DNA of 64,000 nt. Source: Pseudotabrizicola algicola. GTDB taxonomy: Bacteria; Pseudomonadota; Alphaproteobacteria; Rhodobacterales; Rhodobacteraceae. The stretch is from positions 1-64,000 of the forward strand of contig NZ_JAAIKE010000002.1 in assembly GCF_010915705.1 (NCBI RefSeq), read 5' to 3'. Position 1 is the first letter of the stretch; every line of letters begins with the position of its first letter. Of this stretch, positions 49,434 through 57,790 are shown piece by piece. The position numbers were made by a program, and so were the translations under genes. The notes below the pieces were generated by a model. That model saw only the letters and a program-made list of their open reading frames with translations. It had not been told where the DNA came from and searched no databases.

Positions 49434-49871
49434 CTAGAGCTTATGGTCATATGTCACCCAGACCGTGCGCTGCGCCATCTGGTCATACAGGCCGCGCGCG
49501 CGGTAATTGTTCTCTGCCGTGATCCAGCGGATCACGCTCCACCCCCGCCGGCGTCCCTCGTCGGCGACGCCCGAAATCAGGGCCGCCGCCGCCCCCGTGC
49601 CGCGCGCCTCGGGGCTGACAAACAGATCATCCAGAAATCCGCCCGTGCTCGCGGACAGCGGGCGCGCAAAGGCCCGAAAATGCGCAAGCCCCAGAAGCCG
49701 GCCGCCGCTGCTGGCCACCAGAGCTTCCACCTCATGCGCCGGATCGCAGATCCATCCCCAGACGCGCGCCCGCATCTCGTCGGTCTGTGTCACCTGATAA
49801 AACGCGGCATAGCCCGCATAGAGCGCGCACCAAGCCTCGAAATCCGCTGCCTCCGGTCGCCTGATCTCCAT
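49434..49871 (-). CDS. GNAT family N-acetyltransferase
   Basis: The 145-residue product is a compact GNAT: MEIRRPEAADFEAWCALYAG at the start, LLGLAHFRAFARPLSASTGG, then FLDDLFVSPEARGTGAAAAL (motif A, acetyl-CoA pyrophosphate loop) and WITAENNYRARGLYDQMAQR (motif B). The frame continues upstream as an antisense shadow of bciB, but ATG 49871 after GGAGGG is clearly the start. Substrate unknown. It is divergent from bciB; the 120-base gap contains the PpsR-type palindrome. Confidence 0.88.
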   Translation of the reverse strand: MEIRRPEAADFEAWCALYAGYAAFYQVTQTDEMRARVWGWICDPAHEVEALVASSGGRLLGLAHFRAFARPLSASTGGFLDDLFVSPEARGTGAAAALISGVADEGRRRGWSVIRWITAENNYRARGLYDQMAQRTVWVTYDHKL

Positions 49872-49940: not shown

Positions 49941-49962
49941 ACTGTCATTTTTTCCTGACAGT
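49941..49962. promoter_or_regulatory. PpsR/CrtJ-type palindrome upstream of bciB
   Basis: ACTGTCA-N8-TGACAGT is a perfect 7-bp inverted repeat that contains the exact TGT-N12-ACA consensus, including the inner CA/TG, used by the photosynthesis repressor PpsR (CrtJ). It lies 30 bases before the bciB start. A second pair, TGACA-N6-TGTCA, overlaps its left arm at 49932-49947. Confidence 0.7.
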
Positions 49963-49991
49963 TCTATCCTGCCCCCAGCGCAGGAGACAGC

Positions 49992-51227
49992 ATGTTCGAC
50001 CAGACCCGCCCCGGCCCGCAGACCCCCGCCCTCCCCGGCGCGCCGCGGGCCGGGCTCTGCACCGATTGCGGCGTGTCCCGTCTGGGCGACGGCCGCGCCT
50101 GCGGGCGCGCCTGCCAGTTCATCGCGCCCGATTATCCGGCGCTGGAGCGCCGCACGCATGGCCGTACCGCCAACCCCGACAATGACGAAGCCTTCTTCGG
50201 CGTCACTCAGACCATGCTGCGCGCCCGCCTGAAAGAGCCCGCCCCCGGCGCGCAGTGGACCGGCATCACGACCACCCTCGCGGCGACATTGCTCGAACAC
50301 GGGCTGGTCGATGCCGTGCTCACCGTGGTCCCCGACCCGCAAGACCGCTGGAAACCGCTGCCCGCGCTCATCACCGACCCCGCCGATCTGGCACAGGCGC
50401 GCGGCATGCGCATGGGCTGGGCGCCCACCTTGGCCCTCCTGGAACCAGTCCGCGCCGCAGGCCACAGGCGCCTTGCGATGATCGGCATCCCCTGCCAGAC
50501 CTATGCCCTGCGCGCACTCGAGGTGGAGCTGGGGCTCGAGGCGCTCTACATCATCGGCACGCCCTGCTCGGACAACACCAGCACCGCCAATTTCCACCGG
50601 TTCCTCGACCTGCTCGACGAGGCACCGGGGGCCATCAGCTATCTGGAATTTCGCGCCGACTTCCGCGTCGAGTTGCGCTTTGACGATGGCCGCAAACCGC
50701 GGCTCATTCCGTTCTTGCAACTGCCCATCAGCAAGCTTCCCGCCGATTTCTTTCCGATGACCTGCAAAACCTGCGTCGACTACACAAACAGACTGGCCGA
50801 CATCACCGTCGGCTACATGGGCGGCAGCGGCGATCAGTGGATCATCGCCCGCAATCCGCGCGGGGCGACCCTGCTCTCCCTTGTCGCCGACCGCCTGCAC
50901 ACCGCCCCGCCCGCGTCCTCGGGCCGACGCGAAGCGGCCGTCAGGGGCTTCGCCGCCAACACCGCCCGCGCCGCAGGCGGCCTGCCGCTGCGCCGCATGC
51001 CCGATCTGCTCCGCCCGCTCGTCGGCCTCCTGCAACGCTACTTTGGCCCCAAGGGCCTCGAATTCGCGCGCGCCCGCGTGGAAATGAAGGCGATCGAGAC
51101 CATCCTTCACCTGCGCAGGACCCACCCCGCCCGGCTCAAGAACATGGTTCCGGCCCATGTCTGGGCGCTTGCAGCCCGCTACGGGCTGACCCCGGCGCCA
51201 GATGAAAAGCCGCGGCGCAAGCCCTGA
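49992..51227 (+). CDS. bciB: BciB-like ferredoxin-dependent divinyl (proto)chlorophyllide 8-vinyl reductase (FrhB family)
   Basis: The 411-residue product belongs to the coenzyme F420 hydrogenase beta-subunit (FrhB/FdhB) family in the form found in BciB and plant HCAR. It has N-terminal cluster cysteines (GLCTDCGVSRLGDGRACGRACQ; Cys23, 26, 37, 41), GAQWTGITTTLAATLLEHGL, IGIPCQTYALRALE, IIGTPCSDNTS and FFPMTCKTCVDYTNRLADIT, which bind iron-sulfur clusters and FAD. BciB reduces the 8-vinyl group during (bacterio)chlorophyll synthesis. Length fits BciB (about 400). The PpsR-type site upstream supports a role in bacteriochlorophyll formation; no other bch gene is in the window, and an alternative FrhB-type reductase cannot be excluded. 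Confidence 0.75.
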   Translation: MFDQTRPGPQTPALPGAPRAGLCTDCGVSRLGDGRACGRACQFIAPDYPALERRTHGRTANPDNDEAFFGVTQTMLRARLKEPAPGAQWTGITTTLAATLLEHGLVDAVLTVVPDPQDRWKPLPALITDPADLAQARGMRMGWAPTLALLEPVRAAGHRRLAMIGIPCQTYALRALEVELGLEALYIIGTPCSDNTSTANFHRFLDLLDEAPGAISYLEFRADFRVELRFDDGRKPRLIPFLQLPISKLPADFFPMTCKTCVDYTNRLADITVGYMGGSGDQWIIARNPRGATLLSLVADRLHTAPPASSGRREAAVRGFAANTARAAGGLPLRRMPDLLRPLVGLLQRYFGPKGLEFARARVEMKAIETILHLRRTHPARLKNMVPAHVWALAARYGLTPAPDEKPRRKP

Positions 51228-52388: not shown

Positions 52389-53348
52389 CTAAAGGGCAAC
52401 GCTGATCCCCTCGCCACGCTCCTGCGCGCGCCGCACCGCCATCGCCGCCACCGCCAGATCCTGAAGTCCGACGCCGGTTCCGTCAAACAGCGTGATCTCC
52501 TCGGCCGTCTTGCGGCCCGGATGCGCGCCGGTCAGCACATCCCCCAAGGGCGTGATTGCCTCCGGCCCGAGCAGGCCCGCAGCCACCGCGTGCTGCGCCT
52601 CTCCGATAGAGACGGATTGCGCCACCTCGTCGGTAAAGACCGCAGCCCGCCCCAGGAGCGCGGGCTCGACCTCCTGCTTGCCCTTGGTATCGGTGCCCAT
52701 GCAGGCCAGATGGGTGCCCGCCGACACATGCGCATCCAGCAGACTGGCCGCCGGAGACGATGTGATTGTCACGATCACATCGGCCTCGCGCATCCGCTCC
52801 AGCGGGACAGCCTCGAACGGCAAGCCAAGCTCTGCCGCCACAGCGCCCAGCCGGTCCAGCATCTCGGGGTGCAGGTTCCACGCGATCACCCGCTCGAACG
52901 ACCGCACCCGAGCGGCCGCCCGCAGCTGGAACCCTGCCTGATGGCCCGCCCCGACCATGCCCAGAACGCGGGCATCGGCACGCGCCAGCCGGTCGATGGA
53001 AATCGCACTGGCCGCCGCCGTGCGCAGCGCCGTCAGCAGACCGCCCCCGACCATGGCCGTCGGCTGTCCGGTCTCGGGATCGAACAGGAACACCGTGGAC
53101 TGGTGGTTGATGATGCCCTTGGCCGCATTGCCGGGAAAGTAACCGCCCGCCTTCACGCCCAGTTGCCCGCCAGACCGGTCCAGCCCCGATTTGAAACCGT
53201 ATTGCCGCCCCTCGCCCAGCGCCTCGCGCACGACCGGAAAGTTATAGGCATCGCCCCGCGACATCGCGGCAAAGGTGGCCTCGACAGCGGCAAAGGCATC
53301 CTCGGGCGACACCAGCCCGCCAATCAGGCTTTCAGGAACGATCAGCAT
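52389..53348 (-). CDS. bhcD: Iminosuccinate reductase BhcD (ornithine cyclodeaminase family)
   Basis: The 319-residue product is of the ornithine cyclodeaminase/mu-crystallin family: LVSPEDAFAAVEATFAAMSR, YGFKSGLDRSGGQLGVKAGG, the NAD-binding RVLGMVGAGHQAGFQLRAAA and VIVTITSSPAASLLDAHVSA. In the beta-hydroxyaspartate cycle this family member reduces iminosuccinate with NADH to L-aspartate, regenerating the amino donor. Position after bhcC and the presence of bhcA, bhcB and bhcR make BhcD the natural assignment. It is the last cycle gene, 78 bases after bhcC. Confidence 0.9.
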   Translation of the reverse strand: MLIVPESLIGGLVSPEDAFAAVEATFAAMSRGDAYNFPVVREALGEGRQYGFKSGLDRSGGQLGVKAGGYFPGNAAKGIINHQSTVFLFDPETGQPTAMVGGGLLTALRTAAASAISIDRLARADARVLGMVGAGHQAGFQLRAAARVRSFERVIAWNLHPEMLDRLGAVAAELGLPFEAVPLERMREADVIVTITSSPAASLLDAHVSAGTHLACMGTDTKGKQEVEPALLGRAAVFTDEVAQSVSIGEAQHAVAAGLLGPEAITPLGDVLTGAHPGRKTAEEITLFDGTGVGLQDLAVAAMAVRRAQERGEGISVAL

Positions 53349-53426
53349 GGTCGCACCCGCGTCATGACATTTGCCATACGCGCGCCAGACCTGCGCCAGA
53401 CGTAAATCCTATGTGCGATTCCCATC

Positions 53427-54590
53427 TCAATACGCCTTGCCGCGCGCGCTGACCGGCCAGACAACCTCGACCTTGCCGTTCCGCACCCCGACATACCAGT
53501 CATGCACGTTGCAGGTCGGGTCACAGTGGCCCGGCACCAACCGCAGCTTGTCGTTGACCTTCAGCACGCCGCCAAGGTCTTCGACCACCCCATGCTCGTC
53601 ACTGCATTTGACATACTTCACATCCGTCCGGCCAAAGATCACCGGCAGGCCCGAATCCACCGATTGCGCCTTGAGGCCCGCATCCACAATCGCCTTGTCG
53701 GCCTTGGCATGGCTCATCACCGATGTCAGGATGAACAGCGCGTTTTCCCATTCGCCCTGATCGATCCGGCGACCGTCCTTGTCGAGGATACGGCCATAGT
53801 CGGCATCCATGAAGGCATAGCTGCCGCACTGCAACTCGTTGTAAACGCCCGAATTGCTCTCGAAGTAATAGCTGCCGGTGCCGCCGCCGCCGACGATGTC
53901 GCAGGCAATCCCTTCGGCTTTCAGCGTATCGACGGCATCCTTGACCTGCGCCACCGCGAGGTCGATCTTTGCCTTGCGGTCGTCATAGGAATCCATGTGC
54001 TGCATCGCGCCCTGATAGGCCTGGATGCCGGCAAACTTCAGCCCCTCGGCCGCTTCGATCGCCTTGGCCAGGGCCACCACTTCCGGCGTGGTCTTGACGC
54101 CGCAGCGCCCCGCGCCGCAATCGATCTCGACCAGACATTCGATCTGCGTGCCGTGCCGGACCGCCGCCGCCGACAGATCGGCCACGTTGTCCATCATGTC
54201 GACGCAGCAAATGGTGCGCGCCCCAAGCTTCGGCATGCGGGCCAGGCGGTCGATCTTGGCCAAATCCCGCACCTGGTTGCTCACCAGCACATCCTTGATC
54301 CCCCCGCGCGCAAAGACCTCGGCCTCCGAAACCTTCTGGCAGCACACGCCCACCGAACCGCCCAACTGCTCCTGCAGCTTGGCCACATCCACCGATTTGT
54401 GCATCTTTCCATGCACCCGGTGGCGCATGCCATGCGCGCGGGCATAGTCGCCCATCTTCTTGATGTTGCGCTCCAGCGCATCAAGGTCCAGCACAAGGCA
54501 GGGCGTCTGGATATCCGCCTCGTCCATCCCCGGCAGCGCGGGGATGTCGTATCCCACTTCCAGCCCTTCGAAATCTGCGTGCTTGTTCAT
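53427..54590 (-). CDS. bhcC: Beta-hydroxyaspartate aldolase BhcC
   Basis: The 387-residue product is a PLP enzyme of the D-threonine aldolase/DSD1 fold-type III family: DIQTPCLVLDLDALERNIKK, HRVHGKMHKSVDVAKLQ with the candidate PLP lysine at about 62-65, GGIKDVLVSNQVRDLAKIDR, VGGGGTGSYYFESNSGVYNE and a metal-binding VPGHCDPTCNVHDW. BhcC condenses glycine and glyoxylate to (2R,3S)-beta-hydroxyaspartate. It starts four bases after the bhcB stop. Length and order match the Paracoccus denitrificans operon as I recall it. Confidence 0.93.
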   Translation of the reverse strand: MNKHADFEGLEVGYDIPALPGMDEADIQTPCLVLDLDALERNIKKMGDYARAHGMRHRVHGKMHKSVDVAKLQEQLGGSVGVCCQKVSEAEVFARGGIKDVLVSNQVRDLAKIDRLARMPKLGARTICCVDMMDNVADLSAAAVRHGTQIECLVEIDCGAGRCGVKTTPEVVALAKAIEAAEGLKFAGIQAYQGAMQHMDSYDDRKAKIDLAVAQVKDAVDTLKAEGIACDIVGGGGTGSYYFESNSGVYNELQCGSYAFMDADYGRILDKDGRRIDQGEWENALFILTSVMSHAKADKAIVDAGLKAQSVDSGLPVIFGRTDVKYVKCSDEHGVVEDLGGVLKVNDKLRLVPGHCDPTCNVHDWYVGVRNGKVEVVWPVSARGKAY

Positions 54591-54594
54591 GGCG

Positions 54595-55572
54595 TTACCC
54601 TTTCATCCAAGGCAAAGTGTCCAGATCGACGTTTCCTCCGGTTATGATGACGCCGACGCGCCTCCCCCGGAAAACGTCCTTGTTTTTCAGAATGGTGGCA
54701 AGCGGCACGGCGCAGCTCGGCTCCATCACGATCTTCATCCGCTTCCATGTCAGCTTCATCGCCTCGACAATCTCCTCCTCCGTGGCGGTGAAGATGTCGG
54801 CGACATGGTTCGAGACGAAATGCCATGTCAGGTCCTTCAGCGGCACCTTCAGCCCGTCCGCCACCGTCTCGGGCGCGTCGTCGGCAATGATCCGGCCCGC
54901 CTTGAAACTGCGATAGGCATCGTCGGCATTCTTCGGCTCGGCGGCATAGACATCGACCCCCGGCGCAATCGCACTCATGGTGAGGCAGGTGCCAGAGATC
55001 ATCCCGCCGCCGCCAATCGGTGCGATCACCGCATCAAGCCCCTCGACCTGCTCCAGCAATTCGCGTGAGCAGGTGGCCTGCCCCGCCACCACGCGCGGAT
55101 CGTTATAGGGGTGCACAAACTCGCCCCCCGTCTGCGCCTGCACCTGCGCGAACACCGCCTCGCGGCTGCTGGTCGAGGGCTCGCATTCGGTGATCACCCC
55201 GCCATAGCCCCTCACGGCATCCTTCTTGGCCTGCGGCGCTGTGCGCGGCATCACCACATTGCAGGGTATCCCGCGACGCCCCGCCGCATAGGACAGGCTC
55301 AGCGCATGGTTGCCGCTCGAATGGGTGCAGACGCCAAGTGCCGCCTGTGCCTCGCTCAACCCGAAAACCGCATTGCAGGCCCCGCGCACCTTGAACGCGC
55401 CCGCCTTCTGGAAGTTCTCGCATTTGAAGAACAACTCCGCCCCGACCAGTTCGTTGAAATAGCTCGAGGTCAGCACCGGCGTGCGGTGGATATGCGGACG
55501 GATGCGCTCATGCGCGGCCAGTACGTCGTCGAAGGTCGGCACATACATCGGGGTCAGATCCTTCATGTTCAT
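54595..55572 (-). CDS. bhcB: Beta-hydroxyaspartate dehydratase BhcB
   Basis: The 325-residue product is a fold-type II PLP dehydratase of the serine/threonine dehydratase family: FFKCENFQKAGAFKVRGACN with the PLP lysine at about 61, HSSGNHALSLSYAAGRRGIP for cofactor phosphate, VIAPIGGGGMISGTCLTMSA and VGVIITGGNVDLDTLPW. BhcB removes water from beta-hydroxyaspartate to give iminosuccinate. ATG 55572 follows AGGAACAG. It is separated from bhcA by 58 bases that contain a hairpin repeat, and is tightly followed by bhcC. Confidence 0.93.
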   Translation of the reverse strand: MNMKDLTPMYVPTFDDVLAAHERIRPHIHRTPVLTSSYFNELVGAELFFKCENFQKAGAFKVRGACNAVFGLSEAQAALGVCTHSSGNHALSLSYAAGRRGIPCNVVMPRTAPQAKKDAVRGYGGVITECEPSTSSREAVFAQVQAQTGGEFVHPYNDPRVVAGQATCSRELLEQVEGLDAVIAPIGGGGMISGTCLTMSAIAPGVDVYAAEPKNADDAYRSFKAGRIIADDAPETVADGLKVPLKDLTWHFVSNHVADIFTATEEEIVEAMKLTWKRMKIVMEPSCAVPLATILKNKDVFRGRRVGVIITGGNVDLDTLPWMKG

Positions 55573-55580
55573 CTGTTCCT

Positions 55581-55620
55581 AAATATCCTCGGGGGGTCCG
55601 GGGGGCAGACAGCCCCCCGG
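55581..55620. repeat. Dispersed intergenic hairpin element, copy C, inside the bhc operon
   Basis: AAATATCCTCGGGGGGT leads into CCGGGGGGC-AGACA-GCCCCCCGG between bhcA and bhcB. It has the same build as copy B. Within an operon it could attenuate or stabilise segments of the transcript and so set the BhcA to BhcB-D ratio. Confidence 0.65.
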
Positions 55621-55630
55621 CCTTTCCGCC

Positions 55631-56821
55631 TCATTCCGCCGCAAGGGCGAGCGTTCCGGCCGAGCCGCGGTAATATTCCTGCGCCGCCGCAACACCCGAC
55701 CCGAGACGCACCGGCCAGCCCAGATCGGCCATGCACATCTCGGCGGTTGCAAGACCTGCCAGCACCATCACATCGTTCAGCATCCCCAGATGTCCGATAC
55801 GAAAAACCTTGCCCGCGACCTCGCCCAGCCCGACGCCAAAGGCCATGCCGTATTTGTCTGCGGCCAGCTTCACCAGATCGGTGCCGTTACAGCCCTCGGG
55901 CACCAACACGGCGGTTACGGTGTCAGAGTATAGCTCGGGCGAGGCGGCGCAGGGCCGCATGCCCCATGCCGCCACTGCGCGCCGCACCCCTTCGGCAAGC
56001 CGGTGGTGTCGGGCATAGACCGCGTCAAGCCCTTCCTCCTCGAGCATCTCGACAGACCGCGCCAAACCCGCGATCAGGCCGACGGCAGGGGTATAGGGAT
56101 ATCCGCCCGCGGCATAGCTTTTCAGCATGTCGCGGAAGTCAAAGAAGGTGCGCGGCAGGGTGGCGCTCTCCATCGCGGCGAGGGCCTTGGGGCTGACGCC
56201 AAGGATGGCGAGGCCCGCAGGGAGCATGAACCCCTTCTGGCTGCCCGCGACGGCGATATCGACGCCCCAGGCTGTCATCTCGAAGGGCATCGAGCCGATC
56301 GAGGACACGCCGTCCACCATCAGCATCGCCCCGTGCCCTGCCGCATCTATCGCGCGGCGGAGGGCGGCGATATCAGAGCGCACGCCGGTGGCGGTCTCGT
56401 TGTGGGTGGCAAGGACGGCCTTGATGGTGCCGCCGGTGTCGGCCTTCAGGGCGGCCTCTATCCTGTCGATGGGGGCGCCCTGACCCCAGGGCGTCTCGAT
56501 GATCTGGACGTTCAGGCCGTGGCGCTGGCACAGGTCGATCCAGCGGTGGCTGAACATGCCGAAGCGGGCGGCCAGCACGGTGTCTCCGAGGGAGAGGGTG
56601 TTGGTGATCGCGGCCTCCCAGCCCCCCGTTCCGGTAGAGGGCAGCACGATCACCTCGCCCTCCTCCATTTTCAGGACCCGCCGCACCCCGGCCACCGCAG
56701 GCTTGAACATCCGGGCGAAGGCGGGCGAGCGGTGGTCGAGCGTGGGGATGTCGCAGGCCTTGCGGATGGCCTCGGGGATATTCGTCGGGCCGGGGATGAA
56801 GACGGGGTTCTGGGAATACAT
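55631..56821 (-). CDS. bhcA: Aspartate-glyoxylate aminotransferase BhcA
   Basis: The 396-residue product is a class V aminotransferase of the serine/alanine-glyoxylate type: MYSQNPVFIPGPTNIPEAIR, LPSTGTGGWEAAITNTLSLG, VLATHNETATGVRSDIAAL, MLMVDGVSSIGSMPFEM and the PLP lysine in AVAGSQKGFMLPAGLA at about Lys193. BhcA transfers the amino group of aspartate to glyoxylate, giving glycine and oxaloacetate, the net product of the cycle. ATG 56821 follows GGAGGAGCC and the conserved family start. It is the first gene of the operon, divergent from bhcR. Confidence 0.94.
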   Translation of the reverse strand: MYSQNPVFIPGPTNIPEAIRKACDIPTLDHRSPAFARMFKPAVAGVRRVLKMEEGEVIVLPSTGTGGWEAAITNTLSLGDTVLAARFGMFSHRWIDLCQRHGLNVQIIETPWGQGAPIDRIEAALKADTGGTIKAVLATHNETATGVRSDIAALRRAIDAAGHGAMLMVDGVSSIGSMPFEMTAWGVDIAVAGSQKGFMLPAGLAILGVSPKALAAMESATLPRTFFDFRDMLKSYAAGGYPYTPAVGLIAGLARSVEMLEEEGLDAVYARHHRLAEGVRRAVAAWGMRPCAASPELYSDTVTAVLVPEGCNGTDLVKLAADKYGMAFGVGLGEVAGKVFRIGHLGMLNDVMVLAGLATAEMCMADLGWPVRLGSGVAAAQEYYRGSAGTLALAAE

Positions 56822-56893
56822 GGCGGCTCCTCCAAGCGCTGATGACAAGACGTTAACCTGTGTAACGCAGGGGGACAATTTTTTCGAAAAGGT

Positions 56894-56911
56894 TTTTCAT
56901 TTCATTGAAAA
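56894..56911. promoter_or_regulatory. Candidate BhcR operator (TTTTCA-N6-TGAAAA)
   Basis: In the 153-base bhcA-bhcR divergent region, TTTTCA-TTTCAT-TGAAAA forms an inverted repeat, next to the self-complementary TTTTCGAAAA at 56881-56890. IclR-family operators are often A/T-rich palindromes of this form. Binding is inferred. Confidence 0.5.
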
Positions 56912-56974
56912 CGTGATATTTCCGATAAAATCCAGTCACTAAGCCTTTTTCACGAATTGCAGGAGATGTGTGGG

Positions 56975-57790
56975 ATGGCAAATTCTTTGCGGCCGCGCGG
57001 ACGGCCCAAGGCGTTTCACGACAAGACCGACCAGAACACGGTGCAGGCGCTGGACCGCGGGCTTGCGCTGCTGGAGCAGGTCGCGGCGCGGCCGGGCCTG
57101 TCGCTTTCGGAACTGGCGGCGCAAAGCGGCGAGGCGGTGGCGACCGTATTCCGCGCGCTGGTCACGCTGCAAAAGCATGACATGGTGGAGGCCGAGGACG
57201 GCGGGCAGGTCTGGCACATCGGGCCGGGGGCGTTCCGGGTGGGCAACGCGTTTCTGCGCCGCACCAAGGTGGTGGAGCGGGCGCGGCAACCGATGGATGC
57301 GCTGATGCGCGACACCGGCGAGACGGCCAATCTGGGGATCGAGGCGGCGGACGAGGTGCTGTTCCTGAGTCAGGTGGAAACGCATGAGGCGATCCGCGCC
57401 TTCTTTCCGCCCGGCACCAAGGCCCCGATGCATGTGTCAGGCATCGGCAAGGCCCTGCTGGCGTGGTACTCCGACATGCGGGTGGAGCGTATCCTGCGCG
57501 CCAAGGGGCTGGAGCGGTCCACCCCTGCCACCCATGTGACGCCAGAGGCGCTGCGGGCCGATCTGGCGCAGATCCGGGCGCGCGGCTTTGCCATCGACGA
57601 TCAGGAACGGGCCACGGGGATGCGCTGCATCGCCGCACCGATCTTCAACAGCCACGGCGAGCCGGTGGCAGGGCTTTCGGTTTCCGGCCCCGCGTTTCGC
57701 ATCGCGCTGGAGGATGCCGGGCGGATAGGCGCGCTGGTGCGGGCGGCGGCGGACCGTGTGACAGAGGCGACGGGCGGCGCGCAACCCTGA
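56975..57790 (+). CDS. bhcR: IclR-family regulator BhcR
   Basis: The 271-residue product has an IclR N-terminal winged helix (TVQALDRGLALLEQVAARPG, LSLSELAAQSGEAVATVFRA) and a C-terminal ligand-binding domain (ETANLGIEAADEVLFLSQVE, RAFFPPGTKAPMHVSGIGKA, DDQERATGMRCIAAPIFNSH). In Paracoccus BhcR controls the divergent bhcABCD operon and senses glyoxylate; the same arrangement here supports the name. ATG 56975 lies nine bases after AGGAG; two in-frame upstream ATG or GTG codons are less well placed. Confidence 0.92.
   Translation: MANSLRPRGRPKAFHDKTDQNTVQALDRGLALLEQVAARPGLSLSELAAQSGEAVATVFRALVTLQKHDMVEAEDGGQVWHIGPGAFRVGNAFLRRTKVVERARQPMDALMRDTGETANLGIEAADEVLFLSQVETHEAIRAFFPPGTKAPMHVSGIGKALLAWYSDMRVERILRAKGLERSTPATHVTPEALRADLAQIRARGFAIDDQERATGMRCIAAPIFNSHGEPVAGLSVSGPAFRIALEDAGRIGALVRAAADRVTEATGGAQP

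Follow-up and report, generated by a model that had tools for sequence, protein, structure and literature searches.

A bciB-like gene at positions 49992–51227 (+ strand) of the window, by which we mean the whole 64-kb stretch of DNA analysed, most probably encodes a BciB-type 8-vinyl reductase of the bacteriochlorophyll a pathway (we put the probability of this reading at about 0.85). The gene appears to stand as a unit of its own, apart from the photosynthesis gene cluster, and to be tied to the PpsR regulon by a separate operator; we infer PpsR binding and repression and the promoter position, as well as the cofactors, substrate and activity of the enzyme.

A single bciB-like gene with an HCAR-like product

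The open reading frame starts with ATG, encodes 411 aa and is present in one copy in the 4.49-Mb genome, which is assembled in 29 contigs with the window on contig C12. Two claims of the original prediction were borne out, namely that the bciB-like gene lies behind an exact ACTGTCA-N8-TGACAGT palindrome and that it lies away from the photosynthesis genes: the palindrome ACTGTCATTTTTTCCTGACAGT occupies 49941–49962, 29 bases upstream of the bciB ATG, and the cluster, with ppsR, was located on a different contig (C1). A divergent GNAT acetyltransferase gene (49437–49871, − strand), across the palindrome from bciB, was judged to be outside the unit.

Pfam identified the N- and C-terminal FrhB_FdhB domains in one chain (83.3 and 86 bits, each above the cut-off). 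Among solved structures, the top relative of the protein was Arabidopsis HCAR (PDB 5dqr), with 230 bits over residues 10–397 and 36% identity in the alignment, compared to a maximum of 55 bits for F420 hydrogenase subunits. An AlphaFold2 model built from 54 sequences (pLDDT 86.8, pTM 0.89) was matched by Foldseek to 5dqr with a TM score of 0.85 over 391 columns, indicating a predicted HCAR-like fold along the whole chain; against FrhB chains, about 252–255 columns were covered. The NCBIfam scan of the protein returned solely F420 hydrogenase/dehydrogenase models, all far under their cut-offs. A plasmid collection held a single relative, 39.8% identical, and a second query with this relative retrieved itself and six records of F420-type proteins from archaeal-sounding organisms at 23–27% identity. 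The Pfam, HCAR and model comparisons, together with two distribution patterns described below (the gene accompanies BchY and is never found alongside BciA in the family), are the grounds on which we predict a ferredoxin-dependent [4Fe-4S]/FAD 8-vinyl chlorophyllide reductase.

Elsewhere in the window, positions 52389–57790 carry OCD/mu-crystallin, alanine racemase/D-serine dehydratase and class-V aminotransferase domain genes, with PLP-enzyme-like and IclR-like ORFs between or beside them (by eye). Presumably this is a beta-hydroxyaspartate cycle cluster (bhcDCBA, bhcR), whose look it has.

The photosynthesis gene cluster and ppsR are in the same genome

A motif search led to C1:118–141 kb, and ORFs were then called in C1:95–175 kb. 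When 30 of these ORFs were scanned with NCBIfam, 26 were assigned to the gene expected there with a score above its curated cut-off: 5-aminolevulinate synthase, isopentenyl-diphosphate isomerase, Dxs, CrtD and a CrtI-family desaturase; BchB, BchC, BchD, BchE, BchF, BchG, BchH, BchI, BchL, BchM, BchN, BchO, BchP, BchX, BchY, BchZ and AcsF; PufL, PufM and PuhA; and PpsR itself (TIGR02040, 512.6 bits versus a cut-off of 275.4). The four ORFs with no hit over the cut-off were methyltransferase-like, transporter-like, prenyl-synthase-like and one beside ppsR, the last having no NCBIfam match at E 1e-20. All bacteriochlorophyll a steps from Mg-chelatase to BchP were thus named in the cluster, and an 8-vinyl reductase was absent among the 30 ORFs scanned. 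The proposed check of the genome for ppsR, bch, pufLM and bciA therefore found the first three groups, and no match to BciA at E 1e-20. The genome is phototrophic.

The original prediction had offered two readings of a PpsR-marked bciB apart from the cluster: a phototroph whose photosynthesis regulon has an outlying member, or a lineage that had lost the cluster and kept the gene as a leftover. The neighbouring permease, acyl-CoA-ligase-like, aminotransferase and dehydrogenase genes would suit a leftover, as would G027, one of the 56 BciB-carrying genomes of the family and the sole one without BchY, in which PpsR was also absent. However, the presence of the cluster with ppsR in the same genome makes the leftover reading wrong here, and we regard its probability as practically nil. 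The G027 copy (L059) is itself on a contig of 3,164 bases (C24), shared with a mraY-like gene; a second mraY-like gene, 88% identical to that on C24, is found on contig C47, and because of this doubling and the absence of PpsR the small contig is probably foreign, a contamination. The reading as an outlying regulon member gained support from the cluster and ppsR, from the lack of a BciA match and from the recurrence of PpsR-type sites at bciB in relatives.

The palindrome resembles PpsR sites

The perfect inverted repeat at 49941–49962 is a predicted PpsR/CrtJ operator, with TGT-N12-ACA at 49943–49960; the bciB promoter region thus carries the motif by which members of the PpsR regulon are recognised. 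Its core, TGTCA-N8-TGACA, occurred once in the 64-kb window, compared to a mean of 0.03 in shuffled sequence (one copy in 3 of 100 shuffles). Genome-wide (4.49 Mb), TGTMA-N8-TKACA was found at 12 places versus 0 for the reversed pattern, five of them in the photosynthesis gene cluster, one at bciB and six elsewhere, of which one was 43 bases 5′ of an ispG-like gene and three were within ORFs (called by a simple script, with names given by eye). We also scored the window with a matrix derived from R. sphaeroides PpsR ChIP-seq sites (PMC4344238, Table 2), whose 19 rows represent 17 distinct motifs, three rows sharing one; the 17 were used. The palindrome was the top site at 18.4 bits, inside the 13.4–25.3-bit range of the training sites, and the runner-up reached 10.4 bits. 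The loose pattern TGT-N12-ACAGT was not enriched genome-wide (29 matches versus 63 for its reversed form), and in the window a search for the 22-base pattern that tolerated as many as 3 mismatches gave 1 match versus 1.03 expected. Thus, the exact symmetric site alone stood out, and looser palindrome patterns were uninformative.

The copy 5′ of the ispG-like gene (named by eye) is an exact TGTCA-N8-TGACA at G000:C1:302638–302655 (L145:3038–3055), and is also near a second 5-aminolevulinate synthase-like ORF (named by eye).

A possible σ70 promoter, CTGTCA-17-TATCCT (49942–49970, + strand), was noted by eye; it is weak, with 8 of 12 matches, and is overlapped by the operator. A promoter scanner needing at least 9 of 12 matches called no promoter at bciB. 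At the promoter, CTAT followed by CCTG or TCTG was kept at the relatives' loci L043 and L152 and not at L153.

Many relatives carry PpsR-type sites upstream of bciB

The family survey provided 55 bciB loci, of which L096, with no readable start, was dropped; the remaining 54 include L059 from the probable contaminant contig and L097, cut by the contig end. TGT-N12-ACA was present within 300 nt upstream of bciB in 28 of the 54 loci, and a site fitting TGTMA-N8-TKACA in 24. With the PpsR matrix, 31 of the 54 upstream regions reached at least 10 bits, compared to 8 of 340 such regions taken from neighbouring genes, and at least 16 bits was reached in 29 of 54 when the CxxCG codons, not the start codon, served as the anchor of the region. 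The 28 exact sites, from 27 loci, were picked by TGT and ACA, so these six positions are invariant by construction; among the others, C4 was kept in 25 sites, A5 in 27, T14 in 25 and G15 in 27, and the middle varied.

Sites of at least 16 bits were also found at 36 of 79 bciB loci from named genomes (the best 80 of at least 584 matches, minus L199, cut at its start), although these loci and the family genomes are partly the same assemblies, so that the two sets overlap. They include the closest relatives among the matches listed (85% protein identity), from Pseudorhodobacter, with all 18 bases identical, and Pseudotabrizicola. Marivita hallyeonensis and Roseicyclus mahoneyensis are further carriers of such a site. 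Loci from the phylum search reached 16 bits in 6 of 14 cases.

No matrix hit of at least 10 bits was present in the 300 nt upstream of bciB in 23 of the 54 relatives, even though 55 of the 56 genomes with BciB also have PpsR. PpsR control of bciB is therefore not universal, and since the site-less relatives still have PpsR, it is the link to PpsR that is absent there. At bciA, TGT-N12-ACA was upstream in 3 of the 20 loci covered, out of 53 bciA genomes, and 2 of the 3 sites were PpsR-like.

The genes next to bciB vary from clade to clade. In the group L052 and L056–L060, bciB is in the mraY–murD region (genes named by eye), i.e., inside a cell-wall cluster, the calls covering the two flanks for L057 and L058 and a single flank for each of the remaining loci; the operator was present in 5 of these 6 loci.

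This recurrence bears on whether the palindrome in the window could instead be the operator of another regulator, serve the divergent GNAT gene or form a terminator hairpin. A scanner did report a terminator-like element of the minus strand at this place, and the six TGTMA-N8-TKACA sites outside the cluster, three inside ORFs by the simple script, would be compatible with another role. Yet similar sites recur at the relatives' bciB amid differing neighbour genes, and the palindrome fits the R. sphaeroides PpsR matrix and resembles the five found within the photosynthesis gene cluster of this genome, making such a role quite improbable in our judgement, and a PpsR operator of bciB the preferred reading.

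BciB and BciA exclude each other in the family

Among 295 genomes of the family, BciB was found in 56, BciA in 53 and both in 0, at a threshold (E 1e-20) that could hide very divergent copies. BciA was sought without a reference, by searching the PF13460 family in nine genomes. The candidate, which we take to be BciA from its motifs, is 55–63% identical among three BciB-less phototrophs and lies 13–14 kb from bchY in two of the three. BchY matched in 124 of the 295 genomes and exceeded its curated cut-off in 118, the larger set including six below it; in a control of 14 genomes, two matched and none exceeded the cut-off. For the 124 genomes that matched BchY at all, the expected number holding BciB and BciA jointly was 23, and the observed number was 0. 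The 118 genomes divided into 53 with BciB, 49 with BciA and 16 with neither. A survey of 398 genomes of the phylum detected BciB in 15 (E 1e-40), and each of these belongs to the 31 that have BchY. These counts are not independent, as the genomes share descent, and the Fisher values, which ignore relatedness, overstate certainty.

Several genomes depart from the general distribution. G090, 97% complete, matched BciA and had no match to BchY. Neither BciB nor BciA was matched at E 1e-20 in 17 of the 124 genomes with a BchY match (G008, G021, G025, G029, G082, G107, G142, G157, G182, G188, G196, G209, G221, G227, G286, G290 and G292); 12 of these combine a completeness of at least 90% with contamination of no more than 5%, and five give weak BciA-like matches of 21–57 bits at E 0.001. 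Near-complete examples are G182, G188 and G286.

A clade-wide change in the N-terminal cysteines

Compared to HCAR and a Thiodictyon homologue, the protein has Ser29 in place of the third Cys of CxxCxxC, plus a Cys at position 37. The codons of C23, C26, C37 and C41 (50058–50114, + strand) therefore mark a predicted altered set of [4Fe-4S] ligands. In a survey of 149 sequences, some assemblies being counted twice, two had no motif and were dropped; the third position was occupied by Ser in all 147 sequences whose motif could be read, and a Cys was present near 37 in 145 and near 41 in 146. C168, C192, C258 and C261, putative cluster residues, were kept in 54 of 54 alignment rows and both FrhB rows.

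In the tree, 52 proteobacterial sequences formed one group (support 100/99) on a long branch; outside this clade were only HCAR, FrhB and the Thiodictyon homologue. The positions of the long rows are unsure. A profile search of contigs with a mixed alignment returned, as the best 80 of at least 584 matches, close relatives throughout (identity at least 64%). The CxxCxxC-type homologue is encoded at L151:7941–9185, on plasmid pTs485 of Candidatus Thiodictyon syntrophicum, near bchIDO.

HCAR contains unchanged the peptide TPEEVLAAR, one of three shown for Acaryochloris BciB (PMC4836224), and the window protein does not; this is a hint that canonical BciB is closer to HCAR. For Slr1923, a recent review places the modelled ferredoxin docking at residues 9–40 (PMC13297055), roughly the region of the cysteine change. 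As a tentative proposal, which we hold to be somewhat less likely true than false, the proteobacterial enzymes may be a distinct second form of BciB, in which one ligand of the N-terminal, ferredoxin-facing [4Fe-4S] cluster passed from the third Cys of CxxCxxC to the Cys near 37, and the operator and gene may have moved as a unit through phototrophic proteobacteria, e.g., into the mraY–murD region in one clade, replacing BciA and bringing their own link to PpsR.

The distance of the proteobacterial clade from HCAR and its different cysteine pattern might also suit an enzyme of bacteriochlorophyll metabolism that mainly serves a different reaction from that on the C8 vinyl group, be it a reduction of another kind, recycling or repair. 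HCAR, the closest solved relative, is such a case: its substrate is 7-hydroxymethyl chlorophyll a, within the chlorophyll cycle. However, purple bacteria are not known to make chlorophyll b, and the mutual exclusion with BciA (0 genomes shared between 56 and 53) is the pattern expected from interchangeable enzymes. We consider a different main substrate unlikely, and 8-vinyl reduction the preferred function.

Proposed regulation of bciB

At high oxygen, PpsR would occupy the palindrome over the promoter and turn off bciB at the same time as the operons of the bch, crt and puf genes; bound at 49941–49962, it would cover the possible −35 element (CTGTCA) and the spacer before TATCCT. A related arrangement is described for R. 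capsulatus bchC, where one CrtJ palindrome is over the −35 and another over the −10 element (PMC5362033). Relief of PpsR would allow BciB to be made. The enzyme would then act on the C8 vinyl group of 3,8-divinyl-chlorophyllide a, reducing it by means of reduced ferredoxin, FAD and two [4Fe-4S] clusters; HCAR likewise binds FAD and two such clusters (PMC6006212). The C8-vinyl step need not depend on BciB, because BchXYZ is itself reported to be able to reduce this group (PMC4214422) and 16 of the 118 genomes with BchY over the cut-off have neither BciB nor BciA.

Published work already places BciB in ‘some purple bacteria’, in the words of a review (PMC7242693), and describes the core genes of the aerobic anoxygenic phototroph (AAP) clusters analysed as encoding a pathway complete except for the 8-vinyl reductase (PMC3176799). 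The location of bciB would supply, in many AAP relatives, this step published as missing from the core clusters. What is new is the bciB operator, the either/or distribution of BciA and BciB, which makes the two mutually exclusive in one bacterial family, and the clade-wide N-terminal cysteine change. The PpsR-type operator is frequent at bciB (28/54) and seldom seen at the bciA loci examined (3/20). The findings suggest how a pathway gene outside the cluster could stay in the regulon through its operator alone. In the near-complete phototroph genomes with neither enzyme, BchXYZ or another enzyme must carry out the C8-vinyl step.

Comparison with known systems

The gene shares with the PpsR/CrtJ regulon a TGT-N12-ACA operator and a PpsR encoded in the same genome. 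In R. sphaeroides, the bciA gene is, we assume, RSP_3070. The PpsR target table for this species (PMC4344238, Table 2) contains bchEJ and lacks bciA, bciB and RSP_3070, and in the main text of that ChIP-seq study ‘vinyl’ and ‘RSP_3070’ have 0 occurrences each; bciB could not appear there because R. sphaeroides uses BciA. The main text of the CrtJ ChIP-seq study (PMC5362033) has 0 occurrences of ‘vinyl’ and of ‘bciA’, and a literature search, with most subscription journals outside its range, turned up no description of bciB being controlled by PpsR.

BciA, the NADPH-dependent enzyme of Rhodobacter sphaeroides, is predicted to perform the same pathway step and was never found in the same family genome as BciB; unlike BciB, it is an unrelated NAD(P)-binding (PF13460) protein. 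HCAR (PDB 5dqr), proposed to descend from a diatom BciB (PMC4214422), is alike in sequence and predicted fold (36% identity, TM 0.85 over 391 columns) but is a plant chlorophyll-cycle enzyme. With the ferredoxin-dependent BciB of Synechocystis (Slr1923) and Chloroherpeton (Ctha_1208), the comparison of cysteines and clades being made against HCAR and Thiodictyon only, the window protein contrasts in its CxxCGxS motif and extra Cys near 37, where HCAR and Thiodictyon have CxxCGxC, in the PpsR-type operator of its gene and in its separate proteobacterial clade. It resembles these enzymes in the FrhB/FdhB domain pair, the HCAR-like length and fold, and the company of bacteriochlorophyll genes.
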